DNA of 55,149 nucleotides, from positions 1 to 55,149 of the forward strand of contig CACKCD010000002.1 of assembly GCA_902598595.1 (NCBI GenBank), given 5' to 3'. The first letter of the stretch is position 1. The number at the start of each line of letters is the position of its first letter. Both the position numbers and the translations under genes were made by a program. This document shows, one piece after another, positions 1-37,126 of this stretch. A model generated the notes under the pieces. That model did no database searches, was not told the origin of the DNA, and saw only the letters and a list, made by a program, of their open reading frames with translations. This DNA is from an uncultured Pelagibacteraceae bacterium. Its GTDB lineage: Bacteria; Pseudomonadota; Alphaproteobacteria; Pelagibacterales; Pelagibacteraceae.

Positions 1-1136
1 CTATTTATTAATTTACAAATATATTCAGCCATAGCAACTGTTACTTTGTGGTGCAGAGGTAAGACCAGATATCTATTTTCCAAGTAATCCATATTTTTAA
101 ACTTTTTACCTTTAGCAAATCTTTTAAATATAGAATACCTATCATTTCTAAAATGAACTTGATTTGTTTCAATAGAAAATTCTCTAAGTTTTTTTTGAAG
201 AAAATCTTTGTTATCTACTAAAATAGTAAACAGCCATGCTGCGTGAGTTTTTTTTGTGTCATAGTCATTTACACAAAAAATCTTTTTGTTAGATGATAAA
301 TTTCTAAGATATATATTAAATATTTTTTGTCGATGAGATAGAATTGATTTAAATTCCATTAATGAGTCGTAGCCCATAGTCGCTGCAATATCAGTCATTT
401 GATATTTATAACCTATTTCGTCTACATCATTTTCCCAAGTTCCTTTCTGCTTTTTTGTTCTATCAATGCCAAACCATCTTATCCTTTTTGCTTTAGGCTC
501 AAGCTTTTTATCTTTTATAGTTAACATACCGCCATCCCCGGTGGTAAAATGTTTTATTGCCTGAAAACTAAAAGTTGTAAACTCACTTATACTTCCTATC
601 GGTTTTCCCTCATAAGTAGCTCCGATAGCATGAGCTGCATCTTCAATAATAGGAATTTTATATTTTTTTGCTAGAGATCTTAGATTTTGCATATCACAAG
701 GTAAGCCTCCATAATGAACACAAATTATAGCTTTAGTTTTTTTTGAAATAAGTTTTTTTACACTTTCAATACTTATATTCATTGTTTCTCTCTCAACATC
801 GGCAAACTTTATTTTTACACCCATATACAACAAAGGAATATTTGTAGCTGTGCAAGTAAAAACTGTTGTTATCACTTCATCATTTTTTTTTAAGCCGGCT
901 AAAATATATGCTAAATGTAATGAGTCTGTTCCCGATCCAGTTGCTATAGCAGAGCACTTATTTGCAAAAATCTTTTTAAATTTATTCTCAAATTTATCTA
1001 CCATAGGTCCTTGCCCCAACCATCGCCCAGATAATCTTTTTTTTAAATTTAGTGACGATTTTTTTGAAACATATGGATAAAACAACATAACACCTTTACT
1101 TTTATCTGGCATTATGGGCAATTCTTTAAAAGACAT
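1..1136 (-). CDS. DegT/DnrJ/EryC1-family sugar aminotransferase (3' end cut by window)
   Basis: PLP-dependent aminotransferase of the family that aminates nucleotide-linked keto-sugars for surface polysaccharide. The minus frame is open from an ATG at 1136 to the window edge, about 378 codons, and the stop is not reached. Visible family features are an N-terminal GRWLGQGP stretch, the GSGTDSLHLAY cofactor-pocket region, IEDAAHAIGA (Asp for the PLP pyridine) and SFQAIKHFTTGDGG with the internal-aldimine Lys. A family member normally has 370-390 residues, so only the last few are missing. It lies downstream of rfbB on the same strand, which would supply a dTDP-4-keto-6-deoxy sugar substrate (inference). 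The exact sugar, for example a 3- or 4-amino-deoxyhexose, cannot be told from sequence. Confidence 0.88.
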   Translation of the reverse strand, partial: MSFKELPIMPDKSKGVMLFYPYVSKKSSLNLKKRLSGRWLGQGPMVDKFENKFKKIFANKCSAIATGSGTDSLHLAYILAGLKKNDEVITTVFTCTATNIPLLYMGVKIKFADVERETMNISIESVKKLISKKTKAIICVHYGGLPCDMQNLRSLAKKYKIPIIEDAAHAIGATYEGKPIGSISEFTTFSFQAIKHFTTGDGGMLTIKDKKLEPKAKRIRWFGIDRTKKQKGTWENDVDEIGYKYQMTDIAATMGYDSLMEFKSILSHRQKIFNIYLRNLSSNKKIFCVNDYDTKKTHAAWLFTILVDNKDFLQKKLREFSIETNQVHFRNDRYSIFKRFAKGKKFKNMDYLENRYLVLPLHHKVTVAMAEYICKLIN

Positions 1137-1177
1137 CTAATCTCATTATCATAAGAAATTAATCAGCACAAATGACT

Positions 1178-1894
1178 TTAAGTCTTTTTTTTAATCAAAT
1201 TTTTTAATTTGTTTAAATTCATTGAAGGATTTTTTGGAAATTTAATATTTTTTAGTTTTTTTATCGAAATTTTTTTTATCTTTCTATTATATTGTTTTGC
1301 AAAATTATAAACTGTTTGAGTTGGACCTCCTAGATTGATTACTCCCCTCCTGTTGAGTATTTTCATCATTATAGGGATAACATCTTCGTGAAAAATAAAA
1401 TTAAGTTTTACATCTGAAAATGCCCTTTTATGAATAAATGGTTTTTCTGTCATACAAGCTCTTATGATTAATGAATTGTTATACATCTGAACCGCAGCTT
1501 CCCCACCAAGTTTTGACCAAGAATAATTATTTTTCGGCAGCAAGGGATCTGTTTCTTTATAATTACCTTTAGTTCCCGGGTAAACATAACTTGTAGAAAA
1601 ATAAATTAACTTAATTTTTAATTTTTGACATATTATAACAAGATTACATGTTCCAACTATATTGAGGCTTATACTTTCAGCAATATTATTTTCGTGTTTT
1701 TCAAGAGGTCTAGATAGACCAGCTAAATGAATAACAGTTTTGGTTTTTTTTCCTTTAAGATAATTTTCTATAGAATTTGGTTTTAAAATATTCAACTCAC
1801 TTTTATTTGGAAAATAAAAATTTTTAAATTTTTTTTCTTTTAAGATTTTTCCAAATCTTCCTGCACCACCTGTAACTACAATATTTTTTTTCAT
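1178..1894 (-). CDS. NAD-dependent epimerase/dehydratase (short SDR)
   Basis: Extended short-chain dehydrogenase-type nucleotide-sugar enzyme of 238 residues. It opens with the Rossmann motif VTGGAGRFG, has an AGLSRP stretch after the second strand and the catalytic pair in the order STSYVYPG then NYSWSKLGGE (Tyr-x3-Lys). The family is usually 300-340 residues; here the C-terminal substrate domain is short, so either the substrate pocket is reduced or the enzyme acts on a small sugar. The start overlaps the preceding gene by 4 nt (ATGA), indicating translational coupling in the minus-strand glycan operon. Whether it acts as epimerase, reductase or dehydratase is unknown. Confidence 0.8.
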   Translation of the reverse strand: MKKNIVVTGGAGRFGKILKEKKFKNFYFPNKSELNILKPNSIENYLKGKKTKTVIHLAGLSRPLEKHENNIAESISLNIVGTCNLVIICQKLKIKLIYFSTSYVYPGTKGNYKETDPLLPKNNYSWSKLGGEAAVQMYNNSLIIRACMTEKPFIHKRAFSDVKLNFIFHEDVIPIMMKILNRRGVINLGGPTQTVYNFAKQYNRKIKKISIKKLKNIKFPKNPSMNLNKLKNLIKKKT

Positions 1895-5516: not shown

Positions 5517-6407
5517 ATGTCGAAAATTAAAAAAAAAATTTTAATTACAGGTGGAGCAGGATTTGTTGGTACAAATTTAATCAATTTTTTTCTTAATAAA
5601 ACAAAGTTTGATATTGTTAGCTTAGATAATTATTCGTCAGGGACGAAAAAAAACCACATCAAAAATCGAAGAGTTAAATATATAAAAGGACATACAAAAA
5701 ATATTATAAATTTAATTAAAAATCCCAAACAAATTCATTCTGTTTTTCATTTTGGCGAATTTGCTAGAATTTATCAAAGCTTTTTAAAAATGAAAGAATG
5801 CGTTGACTCAAATTTTGTTGGTACCACAGCTGTATTTAATTTTTGTTTGAATAATAATATTAAACTTATTTATTCTGCTACATCAGCTTCTTTAGGAAAT
5901 AAAGGAAAAGACGAGAATTTGTCTCCTTACGCTTTTAGTAAGGCCAAAAATCTTGAAATATTAGAAAATTTAAAAAAATATTTTAAGTTTAAGTTCGAAG
6001 TTTTATACTTTTATAATGTTTATGGACCTCATCATATATCTAAAGGTAGTATGGCTACTGTAATTGGAATTTTCGAAGATCAATATTTGAGAAAAAAACC
6101 TTTAACTGTAGTCAATCCGGGAAATCAAACTAGAAGATTTACACATATTAATGATACGGTTAAAGTGTGTTACTTGGCCTGGAAAAAGGGATTGAATAGA
6201 CATTACATAATTACAAACAAAAAATCACACTCCATAAAAGAAGTTGCTAAAATGTTTAAATCTAAAATTACTTACTTACCTAAAAGAAGTGGGGAAAGGT
6301 ACTCTTCCGCATTAGTAAATAAAAATTTATCTAATAAAATTTATACTTTATTTGGAAAAATAAGTTTAAAAAATTATATTAACGATTTTATTAAGCAGCA
6401 TTCTTAA
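5517..6407 (+). CDS. NAD-dependent nucleotide-sugar epimerase
   Basis: Extended SDR of the UDP-glucose 4-epimerase/dehydratase group, 296 residues from the ATG at 5517; an in-frame GTG at 5511 is possible but adds only two residues. Motifs are ITGGAGFVGTN (NAD loop), SLDNYSSG (NAD-specific Asp), a short Ser-rich SATSASLG strand, SPYAFSKA (Tyr-x3-Lys) and FYNVYGPHH. The loop between the catalytic Ser and Tyr is shorter than in GalE. It belongs with the surface-glycan genes. It converges with apt, the two stops overlapping by 4 nt. Product sugar unknown. Confidence 0.82.
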   Translation: MSKIKKKILITGGAGFVGTNLINFFLNKTKFDIVSLDNYSSGTKKNHIKNRRVKYIKGHTKNIINLIKNPKQIHSVFHFGEFARIYQSFLKMKECVDSNFVGTTAVFNFCLNNNIKLIYSATSASLGNKGKDENLSPYAFSKAKNLEILENLKKYFKFKFEVLYFYNVYGPHHISKGSMATVIGIFEDQYLRKKPLTVVNPGNQTRRFTHINDTVKVCYLAWKKGLNRHYIITNKKSHSIKEVAKMFKSKITYLPKRSGERYSSALVNKNLSNKIYTLFGKISLKNYINDFIKQHS

Positions 6408-6943
6408 TGACCAGGAAATTCCATTAAACAATTGGTATTATAACCTTTTTTTTTAAGAAGATTATTGCCTGGCAAATCAAATAAGTTGATAACAAAGATA
6501 AATCCCGCAACTATACCACCAGAAATTTCTATTAATTTAGCTGCAGCTTCAGCAGTTCCACCTGTAGCAATTAAATCGTCTATAACAAGAACTTTTTCTC
6601 CTTTTTCAATAGAGTCTTTATGAACCTCTATCGTAGCTTCACCATATTCAAGTTTAAAATCTACAGAATGAGTTTCTGCAGGTAACTTATTTTTTTTTCT
6701 AAGCAAAATGAGAGGTTTATTCAAAGCGTATGATACAGTTGATGCGAATACAAAACCTCTTGATTCAATTGCTGAAACTTTATCGAATTCAATTTTTTTC
6801 GATAATTCAATAATTTTATCAGTTGTGAATTTAAAGGCTTGAGGATTTTTAATTAAAGTAGTGATATCTCGAAATAAAATACCTTCTTTAGGATAGTCTG
6901 GAATTGATCTGATATGCTTTTTTAAATCCATATTTAACTTCAA
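6404..6943 (-). CDS. apt: adenine phosphoribosyltransferase
   Basis: Salvages adenine with PRPP to give AMP in the cytoplasm. The 179-residue protein is full length, with IPDYPKEGILFRDIT at the N-terminus, SRGFVFAS, LLRKKNKLP and the PRPP-binding loop VLVIDDLIATGGTAEA. The start at 6943 gives MKLNMDLKKHIR; an internal ATG at 6931 fits the family N-terminus equally well. It is divergent from mtnP across only 28 bp. Context is telling: MtnP releases free adenine, which Apt would recycle. The shared spacer is too short for two separate promoters, so co-regulation or promoters within the facing genes are likely (inference). Confidence 0.95.
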   Translation of the reverse strand: MKLNMDLKKHIRSIPDYPKEGILFRDITTLIKNPQAFKFTTDKIIELSKKIEFDKVSAIESRGFVFASTVSYALNKPLILLRKKNKLPAETHSVDFKLEYGEATIEVHKDSIEKGEKVLVIDDLIATGGTAEAAAKLIEISGGIVAGFIFVINLFDLPGNNLLKKKGYNTNCLMEFPGH

Positions 6944-6971: not shown

Positions 6972-7850
6972 ATGATGAAAAAAAGAAAACTCGGGATAAT
7001 TGGTGGTAGCGGTCTTTACAAAATGGATGGTTTTGAATCAACCAAATGGAAAAAACTTAAAACCTCTTGGGGAAATCCATCAGATGAAATTTTAATCGCA
7101 AAATTAGGAAAAGAAGAAATTTGTTTTATACCAAGACATTCTAGAGGTCATAAGATTAATCCAACAAATATAAATTTTAGAGCTAATATTGATGCCATGA
7201 AACAGCTGGGAGTAACTGATATAATTTCTGTCTCAGCAGTTGGTTCTCTTAAAGAGAAATTAGAGCCTGGTAAATTTGTAATAGTAGATCAATTTATTGA
7301 TAGAACTTTTTCTAGAGTAAAAACTTTTTTTGACGACGAGATCGTCGCACACGTTTCAATGGCAAAACCAATAAGCCCAGGTTTATCTAATTGCTGTGAA
7401 GCAGTTTTAAAAAAATTAAATATAGAATACCAAAAAGGAGGAATTTATATTGTTATGGAAGGTCCACAATTTTCAACTTTAGCTGAGTCAAATTTATATA
7501 GATCATGGGGTGCAGATGTAATAGGTATGACTAATATGCCTGAGGCAAAATTAGCAAGAGAAGCAGAAATTAGATATTGCACTATTGCCATGGTAACCGA
7601 CTATGATTGTTGGCATCCAGATCATGAGGAAGTTGACGTTTCTATGGTAATTCAAACTTTACAGAAAAATGCATCTAATGCACAAAATATGATTAAGGAG
7701 ATTGTCAAAACTTTTAAAGATTATTCAGTAGATAAAGACCCTGCAAATGATTGTTTAGATGTAGCAATAATTACCGATCCTAAAAAAAGAACAAAAAAAA
7801 CAATTAAAAGATTAAAATATATTGCAGGTAGAGTTTTAAATAAAAAATAA
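6972..7850 (+). CDS. mtnP: S-methyl-5'-thioadenosine phosphorylase
   Basis: Phosphorolyses 5'-methylthioadenosine to adenine and 5-methylthioribose-1-phosphate. The 292-residue protein has GIIGGSGLYKM, the phosphate-binding RHSRGHKINP, GPQFSTLAES and MTNMPEAKLAREAE. TDYDCWH marks the MTA-type rather than purine-nucleoside-type active site. It is the first gene of a six-gene plus-strand run and overlaps mtnA by 1 nt (TAATG). MTA is the by-product of spermidine synthase, encoded four genes downstream. The same enzymes often accept 5'-deoxyadenosine from radical-SAM reactions (family knowledge). Confidence 0.95.
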   Translation: MMKKRKLGIIGGSGLYKMDGFESTKWKKLKTSWGNPSDEILIAKLGKEEICFIPRHSRGHKINPTNINFRANIDAMKQLGVTDIISVSAVGSLKEKLEPGKFVIVDQFIDRTFSRVKTFFDDEIVAHVSMAKPISPGLSNCCEAVLKKLNIEYQKGGIYIVMEGPQFSTLAESNLYRSWGADVIGMTNMPEAKLAREAEIRYCTIAMVTDYDCWHPDHEEVDVSMVIQTLQKNASNAQNMIKEIVKTFKDYSVDKDPANDCLDVAIITDPKKRTKKTIKRLKYIAGRVLNKK

Positions 7851-8920
7851 TGAAAATTGAGGGTAAAACTTACAGAACGATTTGGTTTGAGAACAATACT
7901 GTAAAAATAATAGACCAAACAAAACTTCCTCATCAATTTTTAATTAAAGATTTAAAAAATGTAAAAGATGCGATTAATGCTATCAAGACCATGGAAGTTA
8001 GAGGAGCCCCATTAATTGGTGCTACTGCTGCTTATGGCTTAGTTTTATCCTTAATTGAAAAAAACGATTTATCATTTTTAAAAAAATCAAGTGAAGATTT
8101 AATTTCTTCCAGACCAACAGCAATTAATTTAAAATGGGCTGTAGACCGAATGATGAAAAAATTATTAGGAGTTAATGATAAAGATATTTTAAAAATCGCA
8201 TTAGACGAAGCTAAATCAATCGTAGAAGAAGATATAAATTATTGTAAAAGCATAGGTTTAAACGGGTTAAAAATAATTAAAGACATAGCAGATAAAAAAA
8301 AAGATACTGTGAATATTTTAACTCATTGTAATGCTGGCTGGCTGGCTACTATAGATTGGGGCACAGCAACTTCACCAATATATCATGCTCATCAAAATGG
8401 AATTAAAGTTCATGTTTGGGTAGATGAGACGAGACCAAGAAATCAAGGAGCAAATTTAACTTCATATGAACTTAATGAAGAAAAAATTTCAAATACAGTA
8501 ATTACTGATAACGCTGGAGGAATTTTAATGCAAAGAGGGCAAGTTGATATGTGTATAGTTGGTACAGATAGAACTTTATCTAATGGAGATGTGTGTAATA
8601 AAGTAGGAACTTATTTAAAGGCCCTAGCAGCAAAAGATAACAATGTTCCTTTTTATGTAGCACTACCCAGTTCAACAATTGATTGGGAAATTAAAAATCA
8701 TAAAAAAATCCCCATAGAAGAGAGAAATCCTGAAGAGTTATCTCATATTGAAGGTGTGGATGAGAATAACAATATAAAAAAAATTAGAATTTACCCCCAA
8801 AAAAGTAGATCATTAAACCTAGCCTTTGACGTAACACCTGCTAAACTAGTAACAGGATTAATTACAGAAAAAGGAATTTGTGAAGCATCAGAAAAAGGAT
8901 TGAAAGGATTATTTAAGTGA
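7850..8920 (+). CDS. mtnA: methylthioribose-1-phosphate isomerase
   Basis: Isomerises 5-methylthioribose-1-phosphate to methylthioribulose-1-phosphate. The 356-residue, eIF2B-alpha-like protein shows MEVRGAPLIGATAAYG, LTHCNAGWLATIDWGTA with the catalytic Cys, VDETRPRNQG, ITDNAGG and VGTDRTLSNGDVCNKVGTY with the catalytic Asp. This is the diagnostic MtnA set and separates it from true initiation-factor subunits. It overlaps mtnP by 1 nt and the next gene by 4 nt (GTGA), so the three are tightly coupled. Confidence 0.95.
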   Translation: MKIEGKTYRTIWFENNTVKIIDQTKLPHQFLIKDLKNVKDAINAIKTMEVRGAPLIGATAAYGLVLSLIEKNDLSFLKKSSEDLISSRPTAINLKWAVDRMMKKLLGVNDKDILKIALDEAKSIVEEDINYCKSIGLNGLKIIKDIADKKKDTVNILTHCNAGWLATIDWGTATSPIYHAHQNGIKVHVWVDETRPRNQGANLTSYELNEEKISNTVITDNAGGILMQRGQVDMCIVGTDRTLSNGDVCNKVGTYLKALAAKDNNVPFYVALPSSTIDWEIKNHKKIPIEERNPEELSHIEGVDENNNIKKIRIYPQKSRSLNLAFDVTPAKLVTGLITEKGICEASEKGLKGLFK

Positions 8921-10047
8921 AAAAAATATTATTAGTTCTATTTGCAGTTTTATTTTCTACTAGCCTATTAGCTCATTCATCTCCAAATTTTGACTCTAAA
9001 AAAAATTGTAGGAAAAAGCATTCAATGCTTCAAGGCATTGCTAAATTGAAAGGTTATGATGGAGGTAAAATAATTAAATTTAATTCATACACCGGATTTG
9101 ACCAAAGAACAGTTTTGACAGACGGTCATTTGAATAATCCTATTGAAATTACTGGATATCTTCGATTGCCAGAGGGAACAGGAAAAGTTCCTATAGTTAT
9201 TTATACCCACAGTAGTGGAGGACCTGGAGATTATGTTTGGGATGACTTTGTATATCATGCTGCACAAAATCTTCTGAAAGAGGGCATTGGCGTAATGTAT
9301 ATTGATAATTTTTGTTCAAGAGGCGCTAGGTCTACATGGAGAGATCAATCTAAAGTTCCTCTAATTAATGGAGCAATTGATGCGCTCATGGCTTTAAAAG
9401 TTTTACAAACTCATCCAAGATCTAATGGGAAATTTGGAACAACTGGTCATTCAAGGGGTGGAACTAATTCTTTTTTCTTAGCAGATGTAAAACTAACTTC
9501 TAAGTTTCTTGGAGGCACAAAAGGTTTTGACGCAATTCTTCCAGAAGCAGCAGAATGTAGGATGGCGGGTTTTTTTGCAGAACCAAAATTAACTTCTAAT
9601 ACAACAATGCTTGTAGTGCACGGCGGTGCAGATGATTACACTTTAGCCAAGTTTTGCAAGGAGCATGCAGAGAGAATTAAAGCTCCACCAGGAAAAGTAA
9701 AAATTGATATTAAAGAGGGCTGGTACCATGCATGGCATGCAGGTAAAAAACCTTGGAGAGAAAAGATGGCAATGACTCTTCATGATTGTCCTGATTTTTA
9801 CGTTGATAATGAAGGTCGATTTACTAATCCTATATGGGTAGAGTGGATGGTAAATAAACATAAAGTTTACCCTTCAGTAGAAGCGTTTTATGAAATGGCT
9901 CAAAAGAATCCAAGAAAAGCATGGAAATCTGGTTTTAAAATTATGAAAAAAGAAAAATGTATTTCAAAAGGAGTTACTATAGGTGGAGATAACGCTGATG
10001 CTTACATGCCACAATTTATCAATTTCTTTAAAGACAATTTGTTATAG
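8917..10047 (+). CDS. exported dienelactone-hydrolase-like alpha/beta hydrolase
   Basis: Secreted or periplasmic alpha/beta hydrolase of 376 residues. Residues 1-20 form a signal peptide (KKILLVLFAVLF... ending LLAHSS). The core shows VPIVIYTHSSGG, the nucleophile elbow GTTGHSRGGTNSF (Ser about residue 179), TMLVVHGGADDYTL with a candidate acid and GWYHAWH with the His. It is more than 100 residues longer than classic dienelactone hydrolases. GTG start, coupled by 4 nt to mtnA and 1 nt to the aldolase. An exported esterase inside a cytoplasmic MTA-recycling operon has no obvious role; its substrate is unknown. Confidence 0.8.
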   Translation: MKKILLVLFAVLFSTSLLAHSSPNFDSKKNCRKKHSMLQGIAKLKGYDGGKIIKFNSYTGFDQRTVLTDGHLNNPIEITGYLRLPEGTGKVPIVIYTHSSGGPGDYVWDDFVYHAAQNLLKEGIGVMYIDNFCSRGARSTWRDQSKVPLINGAIDALMALKVLQTHPRSNGKFGTTGHSRGGTNSFFLADVKLTSKFLGGTKGFDAILPEAAECRMAGFFAEPKLTSNTTMLVVHGGADDYTLAKFCKEHAERIKAPPGKVKIDIKEGWYHAWHAGKKPWREKMAMTLHDCPDFYVDNEGRFTNPIWVEWMVNKHKVYPSVEAFYEMAQKNPRKAWKSGFKIMKKEKCISKGVTIGGDNADAYMPQFINFFKDNLL

Positions 10048-10691
10048 TGAGTAAACTGAAAGCTGAAGTAATAAAATATTCTAACAAATTAAATATAACT
10101 AATTTATCCACCTTAAGATCTGGAAATATTTCTGCGAGAACAAAAGAGAAAGGAGTAGATGGTTTTTATATAACTCCATCGGGAAGAAAGTATTCATCTT
10201 TAAAGCCAAAAGATATTGTCTTTGTATCTCTTAAAGGTAAATATGATAAAAAAAAGAGTAAGCCATCCTCAGAATGGAGATTTCATCAAGATATTTATGT
10301 GAATAAAAAAGAGGCTAAAGCTATAGTTCATGCTCACTCCACTTGTGCAACAGCAGTGTCTACTCATCAAAAAAGTATTCCAGCTTTTCACTACATGGTT
10401 GCAGTTGCAGGAGGGGAAGACATTAAATGTAGTAAATACGCAACTTTTGGGACTAAAAATCTTTCTAAAAATATTATCAAAGCTTTAAAAAATAGATCAG
10501 CATGTTTGATTGCTAATCACGGTCAGGTTGCTTTTGGAGATAGCTTAGAAAAAACTTTTGAACTAGCTCAAGAGATAGAAAATATTTGCCATCAATATAT
10601 AAATGCCCTAAGAATTGGAATACCTAAGATTCTTTCAAAAAAAGAAATGAAAATTGTTTTGGGTAAGTTTAAAAATTATAAAAAAAGCTAA
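10047..10691 (+). CDS. FucA-like class II aldolase, candidate methylthioribulose-1-P aldolase (DHAP shunt)
   Basis: Zinc-dependent class II aldolase/adducin-family enzyme of 214 residues, with a GTG start overlapping the previous stop. SGNISARTKEKG and ITPSGRKYSSL bind phosphate, SSEWRFHQ carries the catalytic Glu, IVHAHSTCATAVS gives two zinc His and LIANHGQVAFG the third. The block HYMVAVAGGEDIKCSKYATFGT is much closer to fuculose-1-phosphate aldolase than to MtnB dehydratase as I recall these families. Next to mtnP-mtnA and with no mtnC or mtnD in view, it most likely splits methylthioribulose-1-phosphate to DHAP and an aldehyde (inference). MtnB is the main alternative. Confidence 0.75.
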   Translation: MSKLKAEVIKYSNKLNITNLSTLRSGNISARTKEKGVDGFYITPSGRKYSSLKPKDIVFVSLKGKYDKKKSKPSSEWRFHQDIYVNKKEAKAIVHAHSTCATAVSTHQKSIPAFHYMVAVAGGEDIKCSKYATFGTKNLSKNIIKALKNRSACLIANHGQVAFGDSLEKTFELAQEIENICHQYINALRIGIPKILSKKEMKIVLGKFKNYKKS

Positions 10692-10697
10692 TTTTTA

Positions 10698-11738
10698 ATG
10701 ATTAAAGTAGGTGAGCACATAACTATAGATTTCTTAGGTGTCAAAAAAGATTATTCACCAGAGTTCTACGAAAAAGTAATTTATAAAATTGCTAAAGCGG
10801 CAAAAGTTGAAATTTTAAATGTTGTATCTCATAGATTTGAACCTCAAGGCTTTACTTTAGTTGCTTTGCTAGCAGAAAGCCATTTTAGCTTTCATACATT
10901 TCCAGAAAGAGGCGTAATTAGTTTTGATTTCTTTACATGTGGTAAAGTTAATCCAAAGGTTGCACTTAAAATACTTAGAAAAGAAATTGATCATACCAGA
11001 GTAGTCACCCACGCTTTTGATAGAAGTAGTGTAGGCCTATACGACGATATTTACAGCACTCCAGGTCAAAAGAAATTTTATGTTGTTAAAGACGTTTTAG
11101 AAAAATTTACATCTAAAGTAGGTCAATTCGTAGAAATAATGGACCTAGAAGAATTTGGAAATGCTTTATTTATTGATCATGAAATACAAGTTGCTGAAAA
11201 AGATGAAAAAATTTATAGCTCAAATTTTTTCAAATCAAGTTATGATTTAAGCAAAAAAAATAATAACGTTGCTATTATTGGAGGTGGAGATGGCGGGGTA
11301 GCGAGAGCTTGTCTAGAAAATAATTCTAATTATATCGATTGGTTCGAGTTAGATCCAGAAATAGTTGATGCGTGTTATCGCCATTTACCAAAGGTTTGCT
11401 CTAAAGTTAAAAAAAGCAATAAAGTTAAAACTTTTTGGGGAGATGCTTTTAAAAGCATTAAAGAAATAGAAGATTCAAAATATGATAAAATTTTTGTAGA
11501 TTTAAATGATGATCAGTATTGCATAGATCTAGCTAGAAAAAATATGAAAGGACTTAAAAGAATTCTTAAAAAAGGCGGAGTCATCACAGCGCAAGTAGGC
11601 AGCAAGGATAAAAAACCTAAACAGGTTGAAAATTGGTGCAAAGTACTTGATAAAAGTTTTGGAAATGTGAAAGTTTCTGGAGCGTATATACCAAGTTTTG
11701 ACTGTAATTGGAATTTTGCTTCATCTATAATGAAGTAA
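10698..11738 (+). CDS. speDE: SpeD-SpeE fusion: AdoMet decarboxylase plus aminopropyltransferase
   Basis: Two polyamine enzymes in one 346-residue chain. Residues 1-115 are a bacterial pyruvoyl AdoMet decarboxylase: LLAESHFSFHTFPERG holds the Glu60-Ser61 self-cleavage site and His66, and FTCG the Cys81 active-site residue. Residues about 120-346 form a spermidine-synthase domain: a beta-rich start (GNALFIDHEIQVAEKDE), IIGGGDGGVARA for decarboxylated AdoMet, FELDPEIV and the catalytic-Asp strand IFVDLNDDQ, which departs from the usual D-S-S-D-P. Self-cleavage would leave the transferase attached to the pyruvoyl alpha chain (inference). The MTA it makes feeds mtnP. The acceptor could be putrescine or another diamine. 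Confidence 0.88.
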   Translation: MIKVGEHITIDFLGVKKDYSPEFYEKVIYKIAKAAKVEILNVVSHRFEPQGFTLVALLAESHFSFHTFPERGVISFDFFTCGKVNPKVALKILRKEIDHTRVVTHAFDRSSVGLYDDIYSTPGQKKFYVVKDVLEKFTSKVGQFVEIMDLEEFGNALFIDHEIQVAEKDEKIYSSNFFKSSYDLSKKNNNVAIIGGGDGGVARACLENNSNYIDWFELDPEIVDACYRHLPKVCSKVKKSNKVKTFWGDAFKSIKEIEDSKYDKIFVDLNDDQYCIDLARKNMKGLKRILKKGGVITAQVGSKDKKPKQVENWCKVLDKSFGNVKVSGAYIPSFDCNWNFASSIMK

Positions 11739-12535
11739 TGTTTCGAGTTTCTTGTATCCAGCTTTGTTCAAGTGATAATGTTGAACATAATTTAGATAAA
11801 ACAAAACAACTTATAATTAAGGCTGTTAAGCAAAAGTCACATTTTATTTTAACTCCTGAAGTTTCGTCAAAAATATCTTTAGATAAAAAAAAACTTTTAA
11901 ATACAGCAACTTCTATGGATAAAGACTTTTACTTAAATGGAATAAGAGTTTTAGCAAAAAAATACAAAAAATGGATTTTAATTGGTTCATTGATAATTAA
12001 GGTAGGTAAAAAAAAATTAGTTAATAGGTCTATTTTAATTTCGCCAAATGGAAAAATTAAATGTTATTACGATAAAATACATATGTACGATGCAGTATTA
12101 AGCAAAAAAGAAAAATATTTTGAGTCAAAACTATTTCAATCAGGCAATAAAATTAAGATTACTAAATTACCCTGGGGCAAGTTAGGACTTTCAATATGTT
12201 ATGATTTGAGATTTCCTGGAATGTATAAAAAGATGTCAAAGAGGGGAGCAATATTTATAAGTATTCCTTCTGCGTTTACTGAAACAACAGGCAAGAAGCA
12301 CTGGCATACTCTTTTAAAAGCAAGAGCTATAGAAAATTTTTCATATGTTTTTGCACCTGGTCAAGCTGGCAAACATTGCAACGGCAGAAAAACTTATGGT
12401 CATTCATTAATAGTATCTCCAGATGGAAAAATTTTAAAAGAACTTGGAAAAAAAGAAGGAGTTATTACCACAACAATTAATCCTAAATTAGTTAAAAATC
12501 TAAGAAGAACAATTCCTAGTGTCAATTTCGATTAG
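11738..12535 (+). CDS. nitrilase-superfamily carbon-nitrogen hydrolase (Nit1/Nit2-like)
   Basis: Cytoplasmic amidase of 265 residues from the ATG at 11738, which overlaps the speDE stop (TAATG). The catalytic set is intact: Glu41 in LTPEVSS, Lys113 in YYDKIHMYD and Cys154 in SICYDLRFPGMY. AIENFSYVFAPGQAG and RKTYGHSLIVSPDG match the branch that includes deaminated-glutathione amidase and omega-amidase. Co-translation with speDE hints at a role in nitrogen or keto-acid amide turnover, but family members also sit by chance in alphaproteobacterial operons. Substrate unknown. Confidence 0.82.
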   Translation: MFRVSCIQLCSSDNVEHNLDKTKQLIIKAVKQKSHFILTPEVSSKISLDKKKLLNTATSMDKDFYLNGIRVLAKKYKKWILIGSLIIKVGKKKLVNRSILISPNGKIKCYYDKIHMYDAVLSKKEKYFESKLFQSGNKIKITKLPWGKLGLSICYDLRFPGMYKKMSKRGAIFISIPSAFTETTGKKHWHTLLKARAIENFSYVFAPGQAGKHCNGRKTYGHSLIVSPDGKILKELGKKEGVITTTINPKLVKNLRRTIPSVNFD

Positions 12536-32615: not shown

Positions 32616-33710
32616 ATGACGTCTTCAAAAAGCTTTGTAAAATTTGATAAAGTCGATAAAAGTTATGACGGTAAAGTATTAGTCGTTAAAGACCTAAATT
32701 TAGATATCAACGAAGGTGAATTTATCACGATGTTGGGACCATCTGGTTCTGGTAAAACAACTTGCTTGATGATGTTAGCTGGGTTTGAAACACCAACAAA
32801 CGGTGAAATTTATTTAGACTCAAAACCTATTTCTAGAATTCCTCCACACAAAAGAGGGATAGGAATGGTTTTTCAAAATTATGCTTTATTTCCTCATCTA
32901 ACAGTTTATGAAAATTTAGCTTTCCCGCTTAAAGTTAGAAAACTTTTAAAAGATGATATTGATAAAAAAGTTGATAAAGCTTTATCTATGGTTTCTCTAT
33001 CTGGATTTGAAAAGAGAATGCCTAATCAGTTATCTGGTGGACAACAACAAAGAGTAGCTGTTGCAAGATCTTTAGTATTTGATCCTCAATTAGTTTTAAT
33101 GGACGAACCATTAGGAGCTTTAGACAAAAATTTAAGAGAAAGTATGCAGTATGAAATTAAACACATACACGAAAATATTGGTGTAACAGTAGTTTACGTT
33201 ACTCATGATCAAAGTGAAGCTTTAACTATGTCTAGTAGAATAGCAGTATTTAATGATGGAAAAGTTCAACAATTGTCTAGTCCTGATAAATTGTATGAAG
33301 AACCAGTTAATTCATTTGTTGCAGAGTTTATTGGAGAAAATAATACTTTTTCGGGAGAAGTGACCGATATAGCTGGAGGCAAATGCAAGGTTAAATTAGA
33401 TACTGGAGCTGAGATAATTTCTAACCCAATAAGAGTTAAGTCTAAAGGAGAAAAAACTAAAGTTTCTCTTAGACCTGAGAGAGCAATAATAGATCCAGAA
33501 GATAAAATGGACAATAAACACAAAGGTAAAATTGAAGAAATCATTTATCACGGAGATCATGCTAGGGTAAGATTAAATTTACTGGGAAATAAAGAATTTA
33601 TTTTAAAAGTGCCAAATAGTTCAGCTAGAATGGACATTAAGAGAGGAAACGAAATTAATGTTGGTTGGAACAGCCAAGATGCTAGGGCATTAGATCCAAA
33701 ATCAATCTGA
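32616..33710 (+). CDS. potA: polyamine-type ABC transporter ATP-binding protein
   Basis: Importer ATPase of 364 residues of the PotA/FbpC family. Walker A is LGPSGSGKTTCLMMLAG, Q-loop VFQNYALFPHLTV, signature LSGGQQQRVAVARSL, Walker B LVLMDEPLGALDK and switch His in VTHDQSEALT. The C-terminal 120 residues form TOBE-type beta domains (AEFIGENNTFSGEV, KTKVSLRPERA). It is followed by binding protein and two permeases, the full PotABCD set. Substrates in this family include putrescine, spermidine and other small cations. Confidence 0.9.
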   Translation: MTSSKSFVKFDKVDKSYDGKVLVVKDLNLDINEGEFITMLGPSGSGKTTCLMMLAGFETPTNGEIYLDSKPISRIPPHKRGIGMVFQNYALFPHLTVYENLAFPLKVRKLLKDDIDKKVDKALSMVSLSGFEKRMPNQLSGGQQQRVAVARSLVFDPQLVLMDEPLGALDKNLRESMQYEIKHIHENIGVTVVYVTHDQSEALTMSSRIAVFNDGKVQQLSSPDKLYEEPVNSFVAEFIGENNTFSGEVTDIAGGKCKVKLDTGAEIISNPIRVKSKGEKTKVSLRPERAIIDPEDKMDNKHKGKIEEIIYHGDHARVRLNLLGNKEFILKVPNSSARMDIKRGNEINVGWNSQDARALDPKSI

Positions 33711-33765
33711 GATTGATTTAATCAAAAACTATTCAATTTTAAGGATAATTTAACAAAATCAGAGG

Positions 33766-33794
33766 TTGACTTAATTTTTGTTAATTGTTGTAAT
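33766..33794 (+). promoter_or_regulatory. strong candidate promoter in front of potD
   Basis: TTGACT at 33766 and TGTAAT at 33789, each 5/6 to consensus, spaced exactly 17 bp, in the 118 bp gap between potA and potD. A GGAGGG ribosome-binding site at 33818-33823 follows, 8 bp or so before the ATG. This is one of the best promoter and SD combinations in the window and suggests high independent expression of the binding protein. Confidence 0.65.
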
Positions 33795-33828
33795 AAAGCA
33801 TTAAAAAACGTTTAAACGGAGGGAAATA

Positions 33829-34947
33829 ATGAAAAAATTAAGTAAACTATTACTTACATTAGTATTTGCTCTTTCAATTTCTTCTACTTCATATGCAGTA
33901 ACTGTAGCATCATGGGGTGGAGCTTACACAGAAAGTCAAAAACTAGGTTACGGAGATCCAACTGCTAAGAAATTAGGTATACCTATTAACTGGGTAGACT
34001 ACTCAGGCGGATTATCCGAAATTAAAGCTCAAAAAGCAGCAGGTAAGATTACTTGGGACATCATAGATGTTTTTGCTATGGATACTATCAATGGATGTGA
34101 TGAAGGTTTATTTGTTAAATTTGATTTTGACAAAGACTTTCCAGCAGCTCCAGATGGAACTAAAGCTAGTAAAGATTTCTTTACGTCAATGCCAAGTGAA
34201 TGTGCTGTAGGAAATATTTTATATTCTTGGACTTATGCTTATAACGATTCAAAAATCGGAAGCACTAAACCAAAAACAATAAAAGATTTCTTTGACACTA
34301 AAAAATTTCCTGGAAAAAGAGGTATCTATAAATCAGCTATGCACAATGTAGAAATGGCAGTAGCTGCAGCAGGTACTAAGCCAGGCAAAGGTGGAAAAAA
34401 TATCTACAAAAAACTTTCAAAAGCTAAAGGTTTAGATGCTGCAATTAAAAAAGTTGAAGCTCTATGTAAAGATCCAAATGGCGGATGTGTATTTTGGTCA
34501 GCTGGTGCAAAACCACCTGAACTACTTATGCAGGGTGAAGTTGTAATGGCAACAGGTTGGAATGGTAGATTCTTTAACGCTGAAGTTGGAGAAGGCGCAC
34601 CATTAAAACAAGTTTGGGATGCTCAAGGTTTAGATTACCAGTACATGGTAGTTGTTAAGGGTGGACCAAACGAGGCTGATGCTATGAAAGCAATTGCGCA
34701 AATGACTAGCACAGAAGGTTTAGCTGGTTCTGCGAAATACATTGCTTATGCACCTTGGAGAAAATCTTCTCTAAAAGTTATTGAAGCGGGTGAACCATGG
34801 TACAAAGATGGTAAAACAAAAATGATGTCTCAAATGCCAACTCATCCAAACAATACAAAAAGCTATATCCTGATTGATCCATTATTCTGGGCTGACAACG
34901 GTTCAGAAATCGGTGAAAAATGGGAAGCTATGAAGTCTGGTCTTTAA
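33829..34947 (+). CDS. potD: polyamine-type ABC transporter substrate-binding protein
   Basis: Periplasmic binding protein of 372 residues. Signal peptide 1-23 ends SSTSYA before VTVASWGGAY. The family pattern includes WDIIDVFAMD, GNILYSWTYAYND, PKTIKDFFDTKKFPGKRG and MATGWNGRFFNAEVGEG, which holds candidate ligand contacts. Three conserved-looking Cys (GCDEG, ECAVG, LCKDPNGGC) are unusual for PotD and may form a disulfide. It has its own promoter and strong ribosome-binding site upstream and a hairpin terminator downstream, both consistent with excess over the permeases. The ligand is not proven. Confidence 0.87.
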   Translation: MKKLSKLLLTLVFALSISSTSYAVTVASWGGAYTESQKLGYGDPTAKKLGIPINWVDYSGGLSEIKAQKAAGKITWDIIDVFAMDTINGCDEGLFVKFDFDKDFPAAPDGTKASKDFFTSMPSECAVGNILYSWTYAYNDSKIGSTKPKTIKDFFDTKKFPGKRGIYKSAMHNVEMAVAAAGTKPGKGGKNIYKKLSKAKGLDAAIKKVEALCKDPNGGCVFWSAGAKPPELLMQGEVVMATGWNGRFFNAEVGEGAPLKQVWDAQGLDYQYMVVVKGGPNEADAMKAIAQMTSTEGLAGSAKYIAYAPWRKSSLKVIEAGEPWYKDGKTKMMSQMPTHPNNTKSYILIDPLFWADNGSEIGEKWEAMKSGL

Positions 34948-34982
34948 TTAATTTTAAAAGACTTTGATGATATATTAAATTT

Positions 34983-35011
34983 AGGGCGGTTATGAACTAA
35001 CCGCCCTTTTT
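34983..35011 (+). terminator. intrinsic terminator between potD and potB
   Basis: Perfect 10 bp stem AGGGCGGTTA / TAACCGCCCT with a 5-nt loop (TGAAC), followed by five T. Its GC-rich stem stands out sharply from the surrounding AT-rich sequence. The potB ATG lies 4 bp after the T tract, so readthrough or a leaderless start is needed for the permeases. Confidence 0.9.
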
Positions 35012-35015
35012 ATTT

Positions 35016-36269
35016 ATGAGCAGTGAAACACAACGAATTTTGACAACTGACGGTATACCTCTAGAGGTAAGTCTTAAAAAAGTTGAAAGAAGAAATAAAT
35101 TTAAAGCATTTCTTCTTGTTGCACCCTTATTATTTTTTTTATTAATAGTTTATATTTCTCCTATTATTGGAATGTTATTCAATAGTGTCGATGACCGTAT
35201 GGTTACGAACGCTCTACCCAAAACATTTATTGCTATGGAGAAATGGGATGGAAAAGAGCTTCCATCAGAGGAAGTATTTGAAGCTTTTTACATTGATTTT
35301 CAAAAATTAATTGAGGAAGAAAGAGAGGGAAAACTATCAACTCAATTAAATTATGAAAAAAATGGTTTTAAAAGCATTATAAAAAAATTAAGACGAAAAT
35401 CAAAATCCTTTGAAGAAGGAAATTATAAAGAACAAATTATGGCAGTTCATGAAAGATGGGCAGACGTGGAATACTGGAGAGCAATTAAAAGACGTGCACC
35501 TTCTTATTCGTATTCAAAATATTTAAAGGGTGTTGATATGTATCAAAATCAAGAGGGAAAGTTTGTTCAAGTTGAAGAGGATCGAAGAATTTATAAAAAA
35601 TTATGGGTTAGAACTTTAAAAATAGCTTTTTATGTCACTCTATTTTGTTTTTTAATGGCTTATCCAATTGCACACTTATTAGCTACTCTTCCAATGAAAT
35701 ATAGTAATTTATTAATGATTTGTGTTCTTCTTCCTTTTTGGACTTCATTATTAGTCAGGACTGCAAGTTGGATGATTTTACTTCAACAACAGGGAGTAGT
35801 TAATGATTTTTTAGTTTGGATAGGTTTGGTAGCAGACGATGAGAGATTAGTCATGATGTATAATGAAACCGGTACTTATATTGCAATGACACAAATTCTC
35901 TTACCATTTATGGTTTTACCGCTTTATAGTGTTATGAAGACAATATCTCCTAGCCTAGTTAGAGCTGGAAAATCTCTTGGTGGAACACCTTTTACAACAT
36001 TTTGGAAGGTATACTTTCCGCTAACTATCCCGGGAATAGGGGCAGGATCACTTTTAGTTTTTATTCTTGCGATTGGCTACTACATTACCCCTGAATTAGT
36101 AGGAGGTGCATCAGGAACCCTTATTAGTAATATGATTGCATATCACATGAAGTATACTTTAGATTGGAGTTTTGCCTCTGCTATGGGACTGATGTTGTTA
36201 GCAGGAGTTCTTGCAATTTACTGGGTTTATAACAAATTAGTCGGAATAGATAATATTAAATTAGGATAG
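35016..36269 (+). CDS. potB: polyamine-type ABC transporter permease 1
   Basis: Inner-membrane permease of 417 residues. After a cytoplasmic N-terminus and first helix (FLLVAPLLFFLLIVYI) comes a periplasmic, charged insert of about 135 residues before helix 2 (FYVTLFCFLMAYPIAHLLA). Classic PotB is about 285 residues, so this insert explains the extra length; similar long permeases occur in alphaproteobacteria. The coupling EAA-like loop is SPSLVRAGKSLGGTPFTTFWKVYFP. It lies directly after the hairpin terminator and 2 bp before the second permease. Confidence 0.87.
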   Translation: MSSETQRILTTDGIPLEVSLKKVERRNKFKAFLLVAPLLFFLLIVYISPIIGMLFNSVDDRMVTNALPKTFIAMEKWDGKELPSEEVFEAFYIDFQKLIEEEREGKLSTQLNYEKNGFKSIIKKLRRKSKSFEEGNYKEQIMAVHERWADVEYWRAIKRRAPSYSYSKYLKGVDMYQNQEGKFVQVEEDRRIYKKLWVRTLKIAFYVTLFCFLMAYPIAHLLATLPMKYSNLLMICVLLPFWTSLLVRTASWMILLQQQGVVNDFLVWIGLVADDERLVMMYNETGTYIAMTQILLPFMVLPLYSVMKTISPSLVRAGKSLGGTPFTTFWKVYFPLTIPGIGAGSLLVFILAIGYYITPELVGGASGTLISNMIAYHMKYTLDWSFASAMGLMLLAGVLAIYWVYNKLVGIDNIKLG

Positions 36270-36271
36270 AT

Positions 36272-37126
36272 ATGGCTTTACCAAAATATACAGAACCACA
36301 TTATAGAATATGGCATTATGTTTATCTTTTTATTTGTGGTTGTGTTTTTTTCTTTTTAATAGCTCCTTTATTTGTAATTTTTCCACTGTCATTTAATGCA
36401 GAAGAATTTTTAGTAATAACTGACGGCATGAAGAGACTAGATCCAGATGCTTTCTCCTTAAGATGGTACAAGGATATGGTTTATGGAACTAAAAATCCTT
36501 GGGGATTAGCGGCAAAGAATAGTTTTTTTATAGCAATATTTGCAACAATTGGTGCTGTTATTTTAGGAACAGTTGCTGCATTAGGTTTGAGTAGCAGATA
36601 CATGCCTTATAAAGGAATAATAATGGCAACCTTAATTTCTCCAATGATTGTTCCATTAATTATTTCTGGAGTTGCAATTTTCTTTTTTATGGCTAAAGCA
36701 GGTTTAGCAGCAACCCACACAGGAATAATTATAGCTCATATAATTTTAGGAACACCTTTTGTTGTAATTACTGTTACCGCCACTTTATCTGGTTTTGATC
36801 ATAGTGTTACAAGAGCTGCCGCAAGTTTAGGAAGCAACCCTGTAAATACTTTTATGAAAATAACATTACCTTTAATTTTACCAGGCGTAATATCAGGGGC
36901 CTTATTTGCTTTCGTTACTTCTTTTGATGAAGTTGTAATTGTATTATTTTTAGCTGGTTTAGATAACACAACTATTCCAGTTCAAATGTGGACTGGATTA
37001 AGAGAACAATTAAGCCCAACTATATTATCTGTTGCTACTTGTTTGATATTGCTCTCAACATTAGTCCTAGTTGCCGCGGAACTTTTAAGAAGAAGATCTG
37101 AAAGAATTAGAGGAATAAATAGATAA
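36272..37126 (+). CDS. potC: polyamine-type ABC transporter permease 2
   Basis: Second permease, 284 residues, with about six helices. Helix 1 is YLFICGCVFFFLIAPLFVIF, the coupling loop DHSVTRAAASLGSNPVNTFMKITLP and the last helix LILLSTLVLVAAELL. SFDEVVIVLFLAG is typical of PotC-type permeases. It completes the transporter, and its stop abuts that of the convergent cyclophilin gene with no gap. Confidence 0.9.
   Translation: MALPKYTEPHYRIWHYVYLFICGCVFFFLIAPLFVIFPLSFNAEEFLVITDGMKRLDPDAFSLRWYKDMVYGTKNPWGLAAKNSFFIAIFATIGAVILGTVAALGLSSRYMPYKGIIMATLISPMIVPLIISGVAIFFFMAKAGLAATHTGIIIAHIILGTPFVVITVTATLSGFDHSVTRAAASLGSNPVNTFMKITLPLILPGVISGALFAFVTSFDEVVIVLFLAGLDNTTIPVQMWTGLREQLSPTILSVATCLILLSTLVLVAAELLRRRSERIRGINR

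Follow-up and report, generated by a model that had tools for sequence, protein, structure and literature searches.

The fusion gene and its surroundings

On the forward strand of the window (the whole stretch of 55,149 nucleotides that was analysed), positions 10698-11738 hold speDE, one unbroken frame of 346 codons from ATG to TAA. It stands in a head-to-tail series between 6972 and 12535, in which mtnP, mtnA, a hydrolase gene, an aldolase gene, speDE and a nitrilase-family gene overlap or are separated by short gaps, and apt lies divergently in front of this series. The genes and the features of the fusion are listed here with the basis of each assignment.

6404..6943, minus strand: apt, adenine phosphoribosyltransferase (adenine salvage); TIGR01090, 203 bits, cut-off 185.85
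6972..7850, plus strand: mtnP, MTA phosphorylase; NF006492, 440.7 bits, cut-off 437
7850..8920, plus strand: mtnA, methylthioribose-1-phosphate isomerase; TIGR00512, 423.5 bits, cut-off 279
8917..10047, plus strand: alpha/beta hydrolase-like protein, 376 aa, start judged by eye to be signal-like; Pfam and NCBIfam gave no match at 1e-3
10047..10691, plus strand: class II aldolase (214 aa in other loci), candidate 5-methylthioribulose-1-P aldolase (DHAP shunt), function suggested by context
10698..11738, plus strand: speDE fusion, AdoMet decarboxylase-aminopropyltransferase, 346 aa; frame, Pfam, orthologues
10716..11024, plus strand: class 1b AdoMet decarboxylase domain, residues 7-109, PF02675; Pfam, TIGR03330
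10875..10880, plus strand: predicted self-cleavage site E60/S61 (pyruvoyl from S61); sequence, cleavage expected from the family
10893..10895, plus strand: H66, predicted processing/catalytic His; sequence, role assumed
10938..10940, plus strand: C81, predicted catalytic Cys; sequence, role assumed
11052..11198, plus strand: Spermine_synt_N (tetramerisation-type) domain, residues 119-167; Pfam
11208..11714, plus strand: aminopropyltransferase catalytic domain, residues 171-339; Pfam, structure matches
11280..11297, plus strand: GGGDGG, dcAdoMet-binding motif; GGGDGG in 78/80 named loci, GGGDAG in 2/80
11496..11516, plus strand: catalytic loop VDLNDDQ (D268, D271); sequence, alignments
11738..12535, plus strand: gene of the nitrilase family, its start overlapping the stop of speDE; the closest models are those for deaminated glutathione amidase, cut-off not reached

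The first-pass annotation had described a single chain of 346 residues joining an AdoMet decarboxylase to an aminopropyltransferase (APT), and both the frame and the Pfam matches bear this out (AdoMet_dc PF02675, residues 7-109, E 3.1e-27; Spermine_synt_N PF17284, residues 119-167, E 7.9e-5; Spermine_synth PF01564, residues 171-339, E 5.5e-24, with 85.2 bits against a gathering cut-off of 22.9). The decarboxylase domain scores above the NCBIfam equivalog for the B. subtilis-type AdoMetDC (TIGR03330, 92.9 bits, cut-off 75.65), and in the PDB it matches the AdoMetDC chains 1tlu, 1vr7 and 2iii. It contains the residues of a class 1b AdoMetDC, namely ESH with S61, His at +5 (H66) and Cys at +20 (C81), just where the annotation had placed them, and ESH is kept in 80/80 of the named loci described below. 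The roles of H66 and C81 are those that we presume from the T. maritima AdoMetDC. Because the predicted cut would fall between E60 and S61, the transferase would remain on the pyruvoyl (alpha) chain after cleavage, as had also been proposed earlier together with a direct hand-over of decarboxylated AdoMet, which is a conjecture.

The transferase domain stays below the NCBIfam speE equivalogs (TIGR00417 and NF002010, 99.6 against 249.55 and 121.1 against 260), and the automatic name "spermidine synthase" is therefore not warranted. GGGDGG, E217, D249 and both Asp residues of the catalytic loop are retained in the alignment. The spermine synthase signature of PMC11107197 (the Asp of motif 2, the Gly two residues after it and the Glu of motif 3) is found in GGGDGG and FELD, where taking E217 as the Glu of motif 3 is our own reading of that signature. 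The protein also has the make-up of a Pelagibacter-type fusion: one chain with a class 1b AdoMetDC followed by an APT, a DLNDD loop, and absence of the APT C-terminal segment.

Chance or an assembly artefact can be rejected as the origin of the fusion, since the protein is matched at E 1e-10 or better in 158 of the 197 genomes of the family sample (at least four of the 158 matches are fragmentary) and since speDE is under strong purifying selection, with dN of 0.016-0.095 and dS from 0.88 to saturation in six comparisons. Named genomes were scanned with the SAR11 alignment, and the best 80 of at least 503 confirmed relatives were kept; of these 80 loci, 78 are whole and two interrupted by contig ends, every one bears the title Pelagibacteraceae, Pelagibacterales or Ca. 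Pelagibacter, and identities run from 66 to 98%. The window is accordingly of SAR11 (Pelagibacteraceae) origin. At the level of the genus, the fusion is matched in 28 of 61 genomes, which comprise the window's own and 27 relatives. The source genome amounts to 725,424 bases on 39 contigs at 65.6% completeness, and on these contigs the search for a second copy of the fusion found none, giving only one weak partial match (E 0.06). Origin as a phage copy was likewise rejected: of the 136 phage records that match at E 1e-5, not one covers at least 80% of the protein, and the 20 listed are annotated as SpeD or AdoMet decarboxylase. One genus of the family sample, g283, has neither the loop pattern (0/13 genomes) nor a protein match (0/13), and four of its 13 genomes are 89-99% complete (for example G448, one contig, 99%).

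What might be the meaning of the neighbouring genes? Aminopropyl transfer releases MTA. According to the available text of PMC10986504, the DHAP shunt in its phosphorylase form consists of MtnP, MtnA and an aldolase. The mtnP-mtnA-hydrolase-aldolase stretch (6972-10691) resembles such a shunt and might take up the MTA of the fusion, the aldolase itself scoring below every NCBIfam cut-off shown. We surveyed the neighbours by tblastn (1e-10, within the locus) in 84 loci, that is the 80 named ones and four complete genomes, some ending at contig ends. Near speDE, mtnA was found in 77 loci, the aldolase in 76, apt in 71, mtnP in 70, the nitrilase in 60 and the hydrolase in 10. Two examples depart from this arrangement. 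At the presumed HTCC1062 locus (L172), a 174-aa PNP_UDP_1 gene (7820-8344, minus strand), which resembles MTA/SAH nucleosidases at scores below the equivalog cut-offs, stands in place of mtnP-mtnA-hydrolase-aldolase; in a second complete genome (L170), the same search within the locus found no mtnP, mtnA or aldolase near speDE. MTA-removal genes thus accompany the fusion usually, not always. A further variant, at L131 (3858-5894, minus strand), is a 678-aa bifunctional aldolase/short-chain dehydrogenase that lies between mtnA and speDE and replaces the 214-aa aldolase. Separately, about 21 kb from speDE, the window holds polyamine-type ABC transporter genes (32616-37126, plus strand). They encode an ATPase that scores above the TIGR01187 potA subfamily cut-off and below the PotA equivalog, a solute-binding protein and, judged by eye, two proteins of permease-like type.

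The catalytic loop across the lineage

The first-pass annotation had drawn attention to a catalytic loop reading VDLNDDQ in place of D-S-S-D-P. The letters of the loop stand, within the context K-I-F-V-D268-L-N-D271-D-Q-Y, with the correction that both acidic positions of D-S-S-D-P are kept. An alignment of 76 proteins (A3) sets D268 and D271 (i, i+3) against the two acidic residues of D-S-T-D-P, and alignment with the B. subtilis enzyme (loop DSTEP) places them likewise. A SpeE-type loop would read D-S/C-S/T-D/E-P followed by G-P; here it is D-L-N-D-D-Q, so that relative to D-S-S-D-P the changes are S to L, P to D, and the loss of two residues from the following G-P stretch. Catalytic death of the transferase is unlikely, given that both loop Asp, GGGDGG, E217 and D249 are retained and that orthologues are active.

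How widespread is this loop? Of the 158 family genomes in which the protein is matched, 143 contain DNA encoding exactly (V/I)DLNDDQ, and no genome outside the 158 does. Eleven of the other 15 were examined and all proved intact, with DLNDDP (5), DLNDDD (5) or DLNDDE (1); the remaining genomes (G006, G485, G504, G518), with short or weaker matches, were left out of the loop reading. The best 80 of at least 503 named loci read VDLNDDQY (79/80) or VDLNDDQF (1/80), and the genus sample reads VDLNDDQY in 26 of 27 relatives, the 27th (L029) ending at a contig end before the loop. From genome to genome the codons of the loop differ at silent sites but encode constant residues. A loop change specific to this organism is therefore rejected, and reading the loop as evidence of an altered enzyme in the source organism finds no support: judged by the sequences compared, DLNDD is the ordinary loop of the SAR11 lineage and not a new specificity switch in one organism.

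Two genomes, G466 and G475, we take to be those of HTCC1062 and HTCC7211, strains whose fusions have been assayed (see below). Their loops read KIFVDLNDDQF and HIFVDLNDDQF, and their fusions are 63 and 62% identical to the protein studied here. If the two genomes are what we take them to be, then the assayed proteins carry the DLNDD loop. As the loop is shared throughout the family and, very probably, with the assayed enzymes, it should not be taken for a sign of new specificity. The literature on the fusion, in the parts available to us, holds no remark on the SAR11 DLNDD loop.

Leu after the first Asp is also found in other Pseudomonadota fusions, as DLNDP (L173) or DLTDP (L175, L184, L188), and DLTDP occurs in one stand-alone enzyme as well (L196) and in the solved T. 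thermophilus and P. calidifontis enzymes; the fusions L035, L036, L037 and L039 retain DSTDP. Three traits are specific to SAR11 among the compared rows: P and G-P are absent, which makes the loop two residues shorter; YSSN (or alike) stands where others have YHE of the YHEM motif; and the C-terminal segment, the last 45-50 residues, is absent. This segment measures 41-76 residues in 11 other transferase rows, and 45-55 in nine of them. Given YSSN for YHEM and the missing C-terminal segment, a substrate range cannot safely be transferred from E. coli-type SpeE.

Predicted fold and relatives

The structure model has a mean pLDDT of 93.0 and a pTM of 0.77 (an earlier model built from 7 near-identical rows, with a pLDDT of 63.8, was discarded). 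Searched with this model, Foldseek returns human spermine synthase chains in its first six rows, over 357-369 alignment columns. VIA-align of the whole chain with 3c6k_D gives a Z of 26.3 over 322 residues at an rmsd of 5.5, model residues 4-346 corresponding to chain residues 5-365. Human spermine synthase (3c6k/3c6m) is thus an end-to-end structural match, with an AdoMetDC-like N-domain in front of an APT. Like the SAR11 protein, it is without the last part of the SpeE profile and stops at about the same place: in the A3 profile of 393 positions it ends at 341, whereas full SpeE-type chains reach 384-392. It differs in sequence, with 18-21% identity to the SAR11 protein, and in its N-domain, which in animal spermine synthase has lost decarboxylase activity according to the available text of PMC12803844, whereas the SAR11 protein keeps ESH, His and Cys. 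The same text traces the animal enzyme back to an AdoMetDC-spermine synthase fusion of bacteria. The dead N-domain of the animal enzyme is paralleled among bacteria by two alphaproteobacterial fusions (L036, 1171-2601, plus strand; L037, 1198-2568, minus strand), in which the AdoMetDC-like domain has ETSN for ESH and looks inactive and whose contigs each contain a separate SpeD match.

For the transferase domain, VIA-align gives Z scores of 28.3 with 1uir, 30.3 with 7xif and 29.0 with the M. truncatula thermospermine synthase 6bq6, along with 25.5 to 29.0 for many spermidine synthases and 21.6 for that of H. pylori. Since spermidine synthases score as high, the fold does not single out a product. 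The thermospermine-type APTs 1uir (T. thermophilus) and 7xif (P. calidifontis) share the D-L-x-D loop with the SAR11 protein but have P after it, and together with 6bq6 they are unfused and possess the full C-terminal segment, both unlike the SAR11 protein. Bacterial SpeE (E. coli 3o4f, B. subtilis 1iy9) has the same fold and the same dcAdoMet motifs, but differs in its D-C-T-D-P or D-S-T-E-P loop, its YHEM motif and its longer C-terminus.

An APT tree of 41 rows chosen from the A3 alignment puts the non-SAR11 fusions at more than one place: the DL-loop fusions L173, L175, L184 and L188 group with the stand-alone L196, and the DS-loop fusions L035, L036, L037 and L039 fall among ordinary SpeEs. 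The SAR11 stem is 4.2 changes per site long and is met by the long branch of L038, for which the program gave a warning, and we assign no sister group. L038 itself (157-1269, minus strand) is a divergent fusion with the loop DLPDEQ and GSSEG for GGGDG, and its transferase may have another function.

Products, acceptors and direction of the reaction

The first assay of a Pelagibacter fusion is said to be that of Green et al. in 2011. More recently, the AdoMetDC-APT fusions of Ca. Pelagibacter ubique HTCC1062 and Ca. Pelagibacter sp. HTCC7211 (WP_011282223, WP_008544956) were expressed in E. coli (Li et al. 2024, PMC11107197), which agrees with the earlier statement that such fusions are known in bacteria. 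As described in the available text of that paper, both fusions formed spermidine in a speD deletion strain (BL21speD), so that their decarboxylase domain works, and with the speE deletion strain BL21speE as host the products of both were spermine and thermospermine. Relatively large amounts of norspermidine were obtained with both from added 1,3-diaminopropane (Dap). The words "loop" and "cadaverine" are absent from its main text. Another study (PMC8437039, in the part available) cites Green et al. for a multidomain SAR11 SpeE with broad substrate range. The two assayed fusions agree with ours in domain order and length, and the presumed genomes share VDLNDDQ, GGGDGG, ELD and a nearby apt; their identity to our protein is only about 63%. 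A loop common to relatives with proven spermidine synthase activity, which the first-pass annotation had itself named as evidence against its proposal, is hence what we find, the identity of the strains being presumed.

We judge that the gene encodes a SAR11-type AdoMetDC-aminopropyltransferase fusion that makes spermidine, spermine and thermospermine and carries the ordinary loop of its lineage (probability about 0.88), most likely as a broad-acceptor spermidine/spermine/thermospermine synthase. Both activities and the products have been shown by others on orthologues, and the enzyme type is largely already known. We envision that the proenzyme would cut itself between E60 and S61, and that S61 would become the pyruvoyl group and decarboxylate AdoMet. 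The C-terminal domain would then transfer the aminopropyl group to an amine presumably held by D268/D271, converting putrescine to spermidine and this in turn to spermine and thermospermine, by homology to the tested Pelagibacter enzymes; norspermidine might be formed as well if 1,3-diaminopropane is present. The released MTA would probably be cleared by mtnP, mtnA and the aldolase in front, in a DHAP-shunt-type route, with apt recycling the adenine. With respect to the supply of putrescine, PF02784 genes occur in 40 of 41 genomes of the genus, with two in the window's own genome; this family also includes LysA, and the count is therefore weak evidence for ODC. The available text of PMC8437039 lists speC, a putrescine source, among SAR11 genes.

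Might the loop nevertheless make cadaverine, 1,3-diaminopropane or norspermidine the principal acceptor in vivo, with putrescine and spermidine as side substrates? The norspermidine that the orthologues make from added Dap (PMC11107197), the loop, which falls two residues short of the canonical length, and the import of cadaverine, agmatine and norspermidine by HTCC1062 and HTCC7211 cells (PMC8437039) are consistent with this. We nonetheless consider it unlikely, as these orthologues turn E. coli's own polyamines into spermidine and spermine/thermospermine (PMC11107197) and as the loop is lineage-wide rather than peculiar to the source genome. Of the earlier suggestion of another acceptor, the part concerning 1,3-diaminopropane accordingly finds support in the orthologues, whereas a new specificity signalled by the loop does not.

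Alternatively, the transferase may run in reverse in vivo and degrade imported spermidine or norspermidine (spermidine and MTA giving putrescine and dcAdoMet), as has been proposed for the SAR11 SpeE from experiments with HTCC7211 cells (PMC8437039). The PotA-type ATPase, solute-binding protein and two permease-like genes at 32616-37126 in the same window would fit such a role. MTA-removing genes beside speDE would, however, pull the reaction forward; the proposal stems from cell experiments; and, in the available text, its authors call the HTCC1062 data less clear and remark that the SpeE of other cells does not work in reverse (PMC8437039). Reversal thus appears quite improbable to us.

Some SpeD homologues have become ornithine or arginine decarboxylases, and conceivably the N-terminal domain could have undergone such a change and no longer decarboxylate AdoMet. 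This is very hard to reconcile with the restoration of spermidine by the HTCC1062 and HTCC7211 fusions in the speD deletion strain (PMC11107197), or with a domain that passes the AdoMetDC equivalog cut-off TIGR03330, and we regard it as highly improbable.

To return to the preferred reading, a fused spermidine/spermine/thermospermine synthase, we may speculate, with a good deal of doubt, that the rebuilt SAR11 active site (shorter loop, YSSN, no C-terminal segment) forms a more open pocket that would accept either end of spermidine and diaminopropane, and possibly allow the reverse reaction. What is added here to the published picture is that the loop is family-wide and very probably present in the assayed enzymes, and that the enzyme is usually found near MTA-removing genes. 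It is useful to know, and already in print, that several polyamine syntheses are covered by a single fused enzyme. SAR11 are among the most abundant bacteria of the ocean, and polyamines are part of the nitrogen that they use; if the idea of an open pocket were true, the fused enzyme would replace several enzymes in the streamlined SAR11 genome.
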